This document shows, piece after piece, positions 2,746-7,003 of a stretch of 64,000 nt of DNA (position 1 is the first letter of the stretch; each line of letters begins with the position of its first letter). A program made the position numbers and the translations under genes. The DNA is taken from contig JAGDMU010000010.1 of NCBI GenBank assembly GCA_017860615.1, positions 62,001 through 126,000 on the forward strand, given 5' to 3'. The notes under the pieces are model-generated. The model saw only the letters and a program-made list of their open reading frames with translations. It was not told the DNA's origin and made no database searches. The stretch is from Pseudomonadota bacterium. GTDB lineage: Bacteria; Campylobacterota; Campylobacteria; Campylobacterales; Sulfurospirillaceae.

Positions 2746-4626
2746 ATGAAAATTATTTTATTGTTTGGGCTATATGTTAGTCTTCTTCTCTCTGATTCTC
2801 TTGATAGCTTATTAAAAGAGTATGAATCGACATCTGACAATTCATTACATACTGTCAATGAAAAAATAGGACATGTCATTATCTATTCCCAAAAAGAGAT
2901 TCGTTTGATGCAATATTCTAAGCTCAACGATATTTTAAAAGAACTCCCTCTCTTCAATGTCAATACTAACCGATTTGGACTTACCAATTATTCCTTGACA
3001 GGTTCCAAAACAACCACCAGTGGCTTTTTTAGATTTTTTATTAACGACCATGAAATTAGTTCAGGATATGATCAATCCACATCCCTATCTTGGGGCGATT
3101 TGCCACTCGATTTTGTCGATCATGTTGAGATATATTATGGAGAGAGTTCGTTTTCATTCGGCAATGAAACAGGTATCTATTTTGTTCGTATTTATACCAA
3201 ATCGCCTATAAAAGAAAACAGCTCCGAACTCAATGCGATGTTTACCTCCAAAGGCTCAAACTCTCAAAGTATCACACACTCTTCTAGCTTTGAAAATGGT
3301 TGGTCTTATCTGATGTTTCTGAATCAAGAAAAAGTCAAGCAAACGGCCGTTTACAAAAATCAAAAGATTAACAGTAACGGTCATAAACAATATCTCTATG
3401 TCGATGCAAACAATGAAACAACAAATATCAATATGGGCTATACGGACGTTTCAAAAAATAATTACACGGGTTATTCTCTTGATGCAATTCCAAGTAGCGG
3501 TAAAAACCTCTCCAAAGATTTCTTTATCGATATAACACACTCTTTCTTGGAAGATAAATCGCTAAAAGCAAATCTCTCTGTCGATATTAACGATCGAAGC
3601 TATGAAGAAGAGAATACGGATGCAGGTTTCTACATCGTCCCGATAGGATTCACTTTCCCTAGACACTTTAACGAAGATTTACGTTTTATCAAAACCAATG
3701 CTTATCTCTCCAAATCAATTAATTTTGAAAACAACGCTTTAATAGCAGCCTTAAACGTTAAAAATAAAACATATGATGTCCAAAACCGTGAGAGCAATCA
3801 AAATAGCGCCATTGGGCAGTACAATACTTTTGATGAAGAGACAACTTCGTCATTGCTCTTACAAGATAACTATAAACTCACCGATACCCTTATTTTAGTG
3901 GCAAATGCAAAACTTGACCACTATACTCGAAGTGGCTATTTAGAAGACACCTCTGAAACACTTTTAAGAGTAGGTGCCATCTATACACCTACAGAAAATT
4001 TTGGTTTCAAAAGCTTTTACACTCAAACGGCACTTGCTCCATCGTTTTACAACATTGATTATGCGGCACAGAGCAATCCAAATCTAAAATCGCAGCAATA
4101 CAATTTTTACACTCTTGAAGCAGTATATACCCAAGGTAACTCTAAATTTGGAGTTACTTTTGATCATGTTGAAATCGAGGATTTTCTCTATCTTACTCCC
4201 ATCGGGTTTATCAATGTTGATCATAAAATCAAAACCGATGGGTTTCTTTTTGACTATGAATATAGCTTTTCGGATCGAGATAAACTTCGTTTAAATTACT
4301 ATACTTCAACGCTCAGCGAAACTATTAACAACGCTACTAAGGGTGGCTATATTAAATATATGGGTGGATACCAAAAGTTTGATTATTTCACCTCACTCAT
4401 TTATCGAAATGGTTACCAATACCTTGATCTTGATATTCCAGACAGTTTCGATGTAAGCCTTGGTCTTACCTACCATGTAACAAAAGATTTGAGTTATAGC
4501 ATTAAAGCGAATAATATTTTAGATAAATCAACAAAATCTCTTTTTTCCGAAGGTATAGGGGGAGCAAATTTTGCTTTAGATGATAACGACAGAAGTGTTA
4601 CTTTCTCTTTTAGGTGGGTATTCTAA
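2746..4626 (+). CDS. TonB-dependent receptor-like outer membrane protein
   Basis: A 626-residue outer membrane barrel with a short signal peptide, a plug-like region (HVIIYSQKEIRLMQY, LNDILKELP, VDHVEIYYGESSF, IYTKSP at residues ~45-165), a long β-strand-rich region and a C-terminal phenylalanine (RWVF), typical of BAM-inserted barrels. The plug departs from ordinary siderophore receptors: the usual RGF and DGVP motifs are replaced by TGSKTTTSG and INDHEIS. I see no N-terminal STN signalling domain and no obvious TonB box. The stop overlaps the next ATG by one base, and that gene overlaps a GGDEF-EAL gene, suggesting a sensor rather than, or besides, an importer. The ligand is unknown. Confidence 0.8.
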   Translation: MKIILLFGLYVSLLLSDSLDSLLKEYESTSDNSLHTVNEKIGHVIIYSQKEIRLMQYSKLNDILKELPLFNVNTNRFGLTNYSLTGSKTTTSGFFRFFINDHEISSGYDQSTSLSWGDLPLDFVDHVEIYYGESSFSFGNETGIYFVRIYTKSPIKENSSELNAMFTSKGSNSQSITHSSSFENGWSYLMFLNQEKVKQTAVYKNQKINSNGHKQYLYVDANNETTNINMGYTDVSKNNYTGYSLDAIPSSGKNLSKDFFIDITHSFLEDKSLKANLSVDINDRSYEEENTDAGFYIVPIGFTFPRHFNEDLRFIKTNAYLSKSINFENNALIAALNVKNKTYDVQNRESNQNSAIGQYNTFDEETTSSLLLQDNYKLTDTLILVANAKLDHYTRSGYLEDTSETLLRVGAIYTPTENFGFKSFYTQTALAPSFYNIDYAAQSNPNLKSQQYNFYTLEAVYTQGNSKFGVTFDHVEIEDFLYLTPIGFINVDHKIKTDGFLFDYEYSFSDRDKLRLNYYTSTLSETINNATKGGYIKYMGGYQKFDYFTSLIYRNGYQYLDLDIPDSFDVSLGLTYHVTKDLSYSIKANNILDKSTKSLFSEGIGGANFALDDNDRSVTFSFRWVF

Positions 4627-5081
4627 TGAGAGTATTCATCCTTCTTCTAACCTTACTAGCTTTTTCATCAGCAGAAAATTATACTTTTCTTGTACAACCC
4701 TATAGTAAAGAAATGGAACTTGAAGCAAAAATTATTGCTGAAATCGCAACCTCTTCTGTACGTGAAAAAATAGAACTTTTTATTCCTCATATGTCAGAGA
4801 TGGAAGAGAAAATCTATTCACGCTACTTCAAATTGAGCTCAAAATGTGAGACAGCAAACTTTGTCTTTGTGAATAAAGCCGTAGAGAATGAAATTTTGTG
4901 TGATAATACCAACAGGCTCTTTTTTACCAATAACTATCGAAAACTACTCTCCGATGAAAAATATTATGGCGCACTCTTTTGGAATAAAAGTAGACCAAAC
5001 ATTGTCTTCATTAAAAAACGACTTGAAAAAAGAGCTATAGAGCTACCTAAAACATTTGATCAATTTATAGAGAATTTTTGA
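4626..5081 (+). CDS. Small periplasmic protein between receptor and GGDEF-EAL protein
   Basis: A 151-residue exported protein with a signal peptide (hydrophobic run ending AFSSA near residue 16). The mature part has two cysteines (SSKCETANF and NEILCDNT), which could form a disulphide, and ends with NIVFIKKRLEKRAIELPK. The start chosen is the ATG at 4626, which overlaps the receptor's stop (TAATG); a GTG at 4614 would lie inside the receptor gene and put charged context before the signal. Its stop overlaps the next ATG (TGATG). No family is recognised. By position it resembles YfiR-type proteins that sit between outer-membrane and cyclase components, but I see no YfiR motifs. Confidence 0.75.
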   Translation: MRVFILLLTLLAFSSAENYTFLVQPYSKEMELEAKIIAEIATSSVREKIELFIPHMSEMEEKIYSRYFKLSSKCETANFVFVNKAVENEILCDNTNRLFFTNNYRKLLSDEKYYGALFWNKSRPNIVFIKKRLEKRAIELPKTFDQFIENF

Positions 5082-7003
5082 TGAGCAACAAACCTTTTTT
5101 TAAAAAACCCCTTTATTTTCTGATTCCTGTTATTGCTATCTCGTCTATTTTAGGGCTTTTGCTACTTTCAACAATCAAATTAGAAGGAAGTATTGAAAAA
5201 AAGATCTTTGAAATTTCGACCTCAGATGTTTTTACAATTATGAATAACAGTGCCACTGCCATTCAATCACTTTTAAAAGAGAGTACAAACTACCCAGAAG
5301 ATATCAAAAAAAATCGTTTACTGCAACATAAAATTGAAGAGAATTTAAAAGTTCTCATTACGCCCAATATTAAGTACGCGTACCTTTTATACAGAGATGA
5401 GAGAGGTGTATTTCGATTTTTAGCAGATGCATCCAAACAGGAAGAAAAAGCCTTGATAGATCAGAAATTTGATGTTGAAAGCCCAGAATGGCTATCACTC
5501 TATGGAGAGAAAAAAGCCTTGATGATTCAGCATACGCTTCTCCACCAACTCTCAATGAGCTATCTTATTCCTATTATGTATCACGACAAAATTGAACTCA
5601 TTTTAGCCATTGATTTTTCCATACAGAAAATTGAAGAGATTAATCACATTATTCACCTTATGCAAAATGGTATCTTAGCCGTGATGATTGTTGTTCTTAT
5701 CATTTTGCTCTTCACCATTATCCAGTCCATTCGATTTAGAGCCGTTAAAAAAACTGCCTTTATTGATAAACTTACCAATGTTTATAACCGCAATTATCTA
5801 CAAAAATATGAAGATTTTATCAATCTCAATGATTTCATTTTAGCCACATTAGATATTGACTATTTTAAAAAGGTTAATGATACTTATGGACATGATGTCG
5901 GTGATAAAATTTTAAAACAAGTTGCCAATACGCTCTTACTTACGATCAGAAATAAAGATGACATTATTATCCGATATGGTGGTGAAGAGTTTCTCATTTT
6001 AATCAAAACGCAACGAGATGGACATTTGAATGCACTTAATGTCATTGAAAGAATTTTTCGTAATATCCAAGAACACCCTTTTGCTATTTCTAACAATGAA
6101 ACTATCAATATTACTGTCTCAATTGGCGTAAATTTAGTTCCACACAAGTCAAGAACATTTTCTGAAGCTTTCAAACTAGCCGATATTGCGCTTTACAATG
6201 CGAAAAATAAAGGTAGAAATACTATCGAACTTTATGATGAAAATGAAAATATTCATAATACGTTCCTCTCACTTAACGAGATAAAAGAGGCTATAGAAGA
6301 GCATAGAATTCTCTGCTATTACCAAAAGATTGTCGATACTCAAACACAAGAGCTATCGTATTATGAAGCGTTGTTGCGCATTATTGATAAAAATGGAACG
6401 ATTATTACTCCCGATAAAATCCTTCCTACCATTAAAGGTACTTTTATCTTACGAAATATCACAAAAGAAGTGTTAGGTATTTGTTATGAACAACTTATCA
6501 AAAACCCTCTTATGTCAATTAACGTCAATTTGAATCCACATGATATTATTGATGAAACCATTCTAACACTTTTGAAAAATTATGCTAGTGAACCCACTAT
6601 TGCTCCAAGATTGGGACTTGAAATTGTCGAAAGTGAAGACATCGCTCATCGTGATGATGCAAAGAATAATCTCTTAGAACTTAAAAGTCTAGGATACAAA
6701 ATATTTATTGATGATTTTGGAAGTGGTTATTCTAATTTTATCTATCTCACTGAAATAAAAACAGATTATATTAAAATTGACGGTACTATCATTCAAAAGA
6801 TTTTGGAAGATAAAATCTCATTTTTACTGGTTAAAAACATTGTTACATTTGCCAAAGAAGCTCATATCAAAGTCGTTGCTGAATATGTGAGCAATGAACA
6901 GATTTATGACAAAATAAAATCCTTAGGAATTGAGTATTGCCAAGGTGTATTTTTCTCTACCGCGTCAGCTCTTCAAAACCATGATGAAGATAAATTGAGT
7001 TAA
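5081..7003 (+). CDS. Membrane GGDEF-EAL protein (c-di-GMP synthesis/breakdown)
   Basis: A 640-residue inner membrane signalling protein: TM helix ~10-31, a periplasmic sensor region of ~165 residues, TM helix ~197-217, GGDEF domain with intact GGEEF at ~300-304, then a full EAL domain (EALLR at ~429, SINVNLNP, GLEIVES, IDDFGSGYSN, DYIKIDG, VVAEYVS, YCQGVFF). The catalytic acids of both domains appear present, so it may act as a switchable cyclase or phosphodiesterase. An RxxD stretch lies one residue out of register for a canonical inhibitory site. The start is the ATG overlapping the preceding stop. It presumably receives a signal from the two upstream genes (inference). Confidence 0.9.
   Translation: MSNKPFFKKPLYFLIPVIAISSILGLLLLSTIKLEGSIEKKIFEISTSDVFTIMNNSATAIQSLLKESTNYPEDIKKNRLLQHKIEENLKVLITPNIKYAYLLYRDERGVFRFLADASKQEEKALIDQKFDVESPEWLSLYGEKKALMIQHTLLHQLSMSYLIPIMYHDKIELILAIDFSIQKIEEINHIIHLMQNGILAVMIVVLIILLFTIIQSIRFRAVKKTAFIDKLTNVYNRNYLQKYEDFINLNDFILATLDIDYFKKVNDTYGHDVGDKILKQVANTLLLTIRNKDDIIIRYGGEEFLILIKTQRDGHLNALNVIERIFRNIQEHPFAISNNETINITVSIGVNLVPHKSRTFSEAFKLADIALYNAKNKGRNTIELYDENENIHNTFLSLNEIKEAIEEHRILCYYQKIVDTQTQELSYYEALLRIIDKNGTIITPDKILPTIKGTFILRNITKEVLGICYEQLIKNPLMSINVNLNPHDIIDETILTLLKNYASEPTIAPRLGLEIVESEDIAHRDDAKNNLLELKSLGYKIFIDDFGSGYSNFIYLTEIKTDYIKIDGTIIQKILEDKISFLLVKNIVTFAKEAHIKVVAEYVSNEQIYDKIKSLGIEYCQGVFFSTASALQNHDEDKLS

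Follow-up and report, generated by a model that had tools for sequence, protein, structure and literature searches.

Very few cases are known in which events at the outer membrane reach c-di-GMP enzymes. The closest described system is YfiB-YfiR-YfiN of P. aeruginosa (YfiB-YfiR-DgcN in E. coli), whose adjacent genes encode an outer-membrane sensor, a small periplasmic protein with the YfiR fold, and a GGDEF protein of the inner membrane whose periplasmic domain is PAS/Cache-like. In FecA-FecR-FecI signaling, a TonB-dependent receptor is the signal input. A third arrangement combines a TonB receptor, a YfiR (DUF4154) protein, and a kinase or DGC in one operon. A search of the open-access literature found no description of such receptor-YfiR-cyclase operons, and the main text of a 2022 survey of Campylobacterota signaling mentions a TonB-dependent receptor once, as the FecA of a FecIRA (ECF242) system (PMC9239204).

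Here we describe a three-gene module within a 64,000-nucleotide stretch (the window) of a 2.79-Mb genome of the Sulfurospirillum type. The module resembles YfiB-YfiR-YfiN in every feature listed above. However, its outer-membrane part is a TonB-dependent-type receptor, whereas YfiB is an OmpA-like lipoprotein; its middle protein is shorter than YfiR, lies outside DUF4154, and lacks the Cys145-Cys152 pair; and its effector, unlike YfiN, is either a kinase or a protein with an added EAL domain. No OmpA-like counterpart of YfiB was found in the module, the outer-membrane part being a receptor barrel with no conserved fourth gene beside it. The three-layer layout and overlapping genes are shared with TonB receptor-YfiR operons such as those of Sphingobium plasmid pSRL1 and, in the same genome as the module, of G000:C18, and one such operon, in genome G357, carries the sensor type of the module. 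In those operons, by contrast, the middle position is held by a genuine DUF4154 member, the receptors belong to other groups, and the gene order varies. As in the Fec system, the input is a TonB-dependent receptor, but the module has no STN domain, anti-sigma factor, or sigma factor, and its predicted output is c-di-GMP or phosphotransfer. The triad points to a dedicated outside-to-inside signaling line, a variant of YfiR-type c-di-GMP control.

Organization of the receptor-effector locus

The genes run in the order receptor, middle gene, effector on the forward strand of the window, to which coordinates refer unless another locus is named, and one-base stop/start overlaps join them. The receptor stop codon (TAA, 4624-4626) shares a base with the start codon of the middle gene (ATG, 4626-4628) in the sequence TAATG (4624-4628), and the stop codon of the middle gene (TGA, 5079-5081) shares a base with the effector start codon (ATG, 5081-5083) in TGATG (5079-5083). 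Similar stop-start overlaps, some of them of the TTGA type, join receptor and middle gene in most relatives. A promoter-like sequence of putative function, TTAAGCTCTTCTTTTCTATACT (2683-2704), lies 5' of the receptor and is kept in Sulfurospirillum relatives. The palindrome CTGATGTGCATATCAG (2703-2718) was considered as an operator and dropped because it is absent from the upstream regions of relatives. Just upstream of the module, and directly behind a gene for a Fur/PerR-type regulator, a separate gene (2373-2648) encodes an exported protein of 91 aa that belongs to no known family.

The first gene of the module (2746-4626) encodes a TonB-dependent-type outer-membrane receptor of 626 aa. It contains both domains that define a TonB-dependent receptor, each above its Pfam cut-off: a plug (PF07715, residues 42-141, 2869-3168) scoring 33.3 bits against a cut-off of 23.9, and a beta-barrel (PF00593, TonB_dep_Rec_b-barrel, residues 210-591, 3373-4518) scoring 51.6 bits against a cut-off of 27. 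The plug match begins at residue 42, and the receptor has no Pfam match to an STN signaling domain. The end of the plug is atypical, with NETGIYFVRIYTK in place of the usual GGVINIITK. When receptors were compared, those of the module formed a clade of their own. The nine other receptors identified in this genome fall outside that clade, and several of them adjoin TonB/ExbBD, ABC, iron, reductase, or FecIR genes. Around the module itself, the gene neighborhoods of the copies contain no conserved transport gene, permease, or ABC gene, and no conserved fourth neighbor, including any able to name a ligand, beyond genus-level synteny. Two loci carry a split receptor gene (L037 and L038, in G017 and G015, with the halves approximately 2 kb apart in G017) while their middle and effector genes are open. 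In a Sulfurimonas locus (L305, 2136-5881), two tandem module receptors are followed by one middle protein and one effector.

The third gene (5081-7003) encodes a 640-aa effector with two transmembrane helices. Its GGDEF domain (5756-6220, 128.6 bits in Pfam) has an intact GGEEF motif, and its EAL domain (6275-6961, 183.3 bits) retains EALLR, DDFGSG, and the other catalytic motifs. With the catalytic motifs intact in both domains, the protein is predicted to be a bifunctional GGDEF-EAL enzyme. The motif check found no inhibitory RxxD I-site of the GGDEF domain in the usual register. A periplasmic Cache/PAS-like sensor domain (5186-5656), delimited by structural modeling and profile searches, is common to the module effectors, kinases included. 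The model of this domain (pLDDT 88) has a Cache/PAS fold and is closest to the extracellular domain of WalK (4YWZ; Z 15.4, rmsd 2.4 Å over 140 residues); it also matches sporulation kinase D and Tlp3, each with a Z score of approximately 12. Our analysis agrees with the initial annotation on the two stop-to-start overlaps, the atypical plug, the want of transport partners nearby, and the two-helix GGDEF-EAL protein.

The middle protein and its resemblance to YfiR

The middle gene (4626-5081) encodes a 151-aa exported protein whose N-terminus is a hydrophobic stretch resembling a signal peptide. The family alignment yielded a signature, GALFWNKSRPNI in the window (4968-5003) with the consensus GAFFWQKGRPNI, in which W, K, and R are invariant (as is G in alignment A1). 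Searches with hmmscan assigned the protein to no family in Pfam or NCBIfam, and it has no match to PF13689 above the curated cut-off. The same search against Pfam assigned 66 members of the middle family to no family, PF13689 not being among the matches listed. The family profile was also searched against PDB sequences, with no significant match.

The AlphaFold2 model of the middle protein (pLDDT 89, from 69 aligned sequences) is a single lobe of approximately 125 residues. Its best fold matches (Foldseek, VIA-align) are the substrate-binding proteins 3LKV, 6K1Y, and 3LFT, together with YfiR, at Z about 10. YfiR chains (4XJY, 4ZHU, 4YN7, and others) align over 121-125 residues with Z scores of 9.0-10.3 and an rmsd of approximately 3.3 Å. 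The model therefore has the YfiR fold, and substrate-binding lobes match it too. Because the YfiR structure paper names 3LFT and 3LKV as the folds closest to YfiR itself (PMC4655355), fold alone cannot part YfiR from a binding-protein lobe; what separates them is gene context.

Profile-profile comparison of the middle family with 17 DUF4154 proteins gave a colinear, nearly full-length match at a probability of 87% (E 4.6e-6), and the comparisons with DUF4154 together spanned 74-87% (E values of 3e-5 to 5e-6). These values are moderate and below any Pfam threshold; unrelated controls reached 2%. A further group of exported proteins that is weakly DUF4154-like (A4) matched the middle family with a probability of 88% and DUF4154 with a probability of 98% (E 1e-13). 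The only cysteines of the window's middle protein are C74 and C92, neither of which lies in the motif region aligning with Cys152 of YfiR, and the structural disulfide Cys145-Cys152 has no counterpart in this protein. Judged by eye, the GAFFWQKGRPNIIF hairpin of the middle protein overlies the YfiR segment GSMFCLNVGGPRITF, which includes Phe151 by our count along the printed YfiR sequence. Phe151 is one of four positions at which mutation is reported to affect the interaction with YfiN (PMC4655355).

Since the fold and the remote profile match are accompanied by neither PF13689 membership nor the Cys145-Cys152 pair, we call the middle protein YfiR-like and not a member of the YfiR family. The initial annotation had called it a small, exported protein of no known family, which is correct at the level of Pfam and NCBIfam but not at the depth of predicted structure and profile comparison. 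It had also likened the logic of the locus to that of YfiB-YfiR-YfiN, built from different parts. We retain the likeness of logic; one of those parts is itself YfiR-like, given its fold and its remote match to DUF4154.

Co-occurrence of receptor, middle protein, and sensor domain

Three independent profile searches, one each for the middle protein (A1), the receptor (A6), and the sensor domain (A5), were each run on 298 Campylobacterota genomes, drawn in the same way. Within 100 bp of the 63 middle-protein copies, the receptor was found in 61 cases, the sensor in 59, and both in 58. Outside the module, the receptor clade and the sensor domain are almost absent from these genomes. The clade receptors without an adjoining middle protein were the second receptor of a tandem pair (G115), half of a split receptor (G017), a remnant (G004), and one receptor of a related DUF4154-like group (G314). 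The corresponding sensors were one upstream of a receptor (G046), one in the canonical YfiR-TonB receptor-effector operon of G357, and a weak match in an unrelated setting (G291). Because these reverse searches left so few stray cases, each explained, we consider the three proteins nearly obligate partners. The recurrence of the triad is far above chance.

The middle family, which bears the signature GAFFWQKGRPNI, was gathered more widely from 143 unique loci in relatives and named GTDB genomes. The receptor is the upstream ORF at all 133 of the 133 loci that have a long upstream ORF (four further loci are cut by contig ends), and an effector lies downstream at no fewer than 131 of the 143. 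Classified by regular expression, the outputs comprise approximately 76 GGDEF-EAL proteins, 40 GGDEF-only proteins, and 10 kinases. One common sensor domain is thus coupled to exchanged outputs, and the same front end serves cyclases, GGDEF-EAL proteins, and kinases. The closest named matches of the middle protein are mostly from Sulfurospirillum, and further members come from Aquificota (Hydrogenothermaceae, Aquificaceae, Persephonella). In free-living Campylobacterota and Aquificota, the three genes almost always occur together. Four Hydrogenimonas-type loci (L052, L053, L065, and L165) have a receptor and a middle protein with no adjacent effector, and a HAD-like gene occupies its place. 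Between the three proteins, pairwise distances are correlated (r = 0.66-0.79, not corrected for the species tree); permuting the receptor-middle pair 500 times gave an r of at most 0.11.

The locus had initially been read as one unit of receptor, linker, and c-di-GMP enzyme, a reading that scattered middle-protein homologs or a regular pairing of the receptors with import genes would contradict. Scatter of the middle protein is contradicted by the 58 complete neighborhoods among 63 copies, and no pairing with import genes was seen around the module. The unit is a compact, conserved set of three genes, comprising a receptor clade, a messenger family, and a sensor domain of its own. However, c-di-GMP is not its only output: some copies carry a histidine kinase in place of the GGDEF-EAL protein.

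Signaling model, alternatives, and related operons

We think it likely that the locus is a self-contained trans-envelope signaling module, running from the receptor through the YfiR-fold periplasmic protein to the inner-membrane effector. This reading builds on the genes and their overlaps, their co-occurrence, the common sensor domain with its swapped outputs, the predicted YfiR-like fold, and the intact catalytic motifs; from these we infer the physical contacts, the sign of regulation, the ligand, and the role of TonB. An outside ligand would be sensed by the dedicated receptor, whose state would be handed to the small periplasmic protein. That protein would bind or release the Cache-like domain of the effector and so switch its GGDEF/EAL activity, or the histidine kinase in other copies; receptor occupancy would in this way set enzyme activity. 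By analogy with YfiR and YfiN, the middle protein would inhibit the effector while free and would be captured by the receptor once ligand is bound, which makes relief of repression by capture at the receptor the most likely mode. Conservation of the unit is not by itself proof of the direction of the signal. The model makes control of c-di-GMP by an outer-membrane receptor directly testable in a laboratory Sulfurospirillum, and it offers a functional hypothesis for receptors that annotation would name iron uptake.

A bolder version, which we put forward tentatively as falling somewhat short of probable, is that the TonB-dependent-type barrels in this clade only sense and do not transport. A non-catalytic YfiR-fold messenger would touch both the plug and the Cache domain and drive c-di-GMP or two-component outputs, forming a general relay from outside to cytoplasm with exchangeable outputs and no ligand import.

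Alternatively, the receptor may be a transporter and the middle protein a small periplasmic substrate-binding protein whose ligand-loaded form activates the effector. Binding proteins can switch Cache domains, and ABC substrate-binding proteins (3LKV, 3LFT, 6K1Y) are among the nearest folds of the middle protein. However, binding proteins usually require two lobes and the middle protein has one, of approximately 125 residues; nor does a conserved permease or ABC gene lie nearby. A TonB-box-like motif was detected in 15 of 125 module receptors versus 6 of the 9 other receptors of the same genome, a weak test based on a loose regular expression. YfiR, moreover, gives the same fold matches and yet acts by protein-protein contact (PMC4655355). 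We therefore regard the binding-protein reading as unlikely. Less likely still is that the triad is inherited together as an operon for uptake or attachment and that its c-di-GMP enzyme acts only in parallel, on expression or biofilm, with no protein contact between layers. Operonic co-regulation can in general explain gene proximity, but it explains neither the YfiR fold of the middle protein nor why one sensor domain, nearly confined to module loci, precedes three outputs. Surface signaling of the FecA-FecR-ECF sigma type is highly improbable: a receptor does head the module and a FecI-FecR-FecA type locus exists elsewhere in the genome (L289, 11539-15412), but the module contains no STN domain, FecR, or sigma factor.

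The signaling module is best read as one separate branch within a broader receptor-YfiR-effector arrangement, because other YfiR proteins and those of the A4 group are likewise accompanied by a TonB receptor and a GGDEF protein or kinase. Within the phylum, genuine DUF4154/YfiR proteins are encoded between, or next to, genes for TonB receptors and for DGCs or kinases. Beyond the phylum, the Sphingobium plasmid pSRL1 (RefSeq) encodes a TonB receptor, a YfiR family protein, and an ATP-binding protein in succession; the plasmid search for DUF4154 gave three distant matches only. The genome of the window carries a second module with overlapping genes for a receptor, a 138-aa middle protein, a histidine kinase, and a response-regulator protein. 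It also has, at approximately 14.1-18.3 kb of G000:C18 (L110/L285), a canonical DUF4154 operon of overlapping DGC, YfiR, and TonB receptor genes. The A4 proteins (group C; L202-L231, L244-L254), of approximately 180 aa, are encoded next to TonB receptors and to GGDEF proteins or kinases and occur in 28 of the 298 Campylobacterota genomes. Sulfurospirillum genomes additionally contain several long open frames (approximately 620-750 aa) with an ABC_sub_bind-like region (L257-L274).
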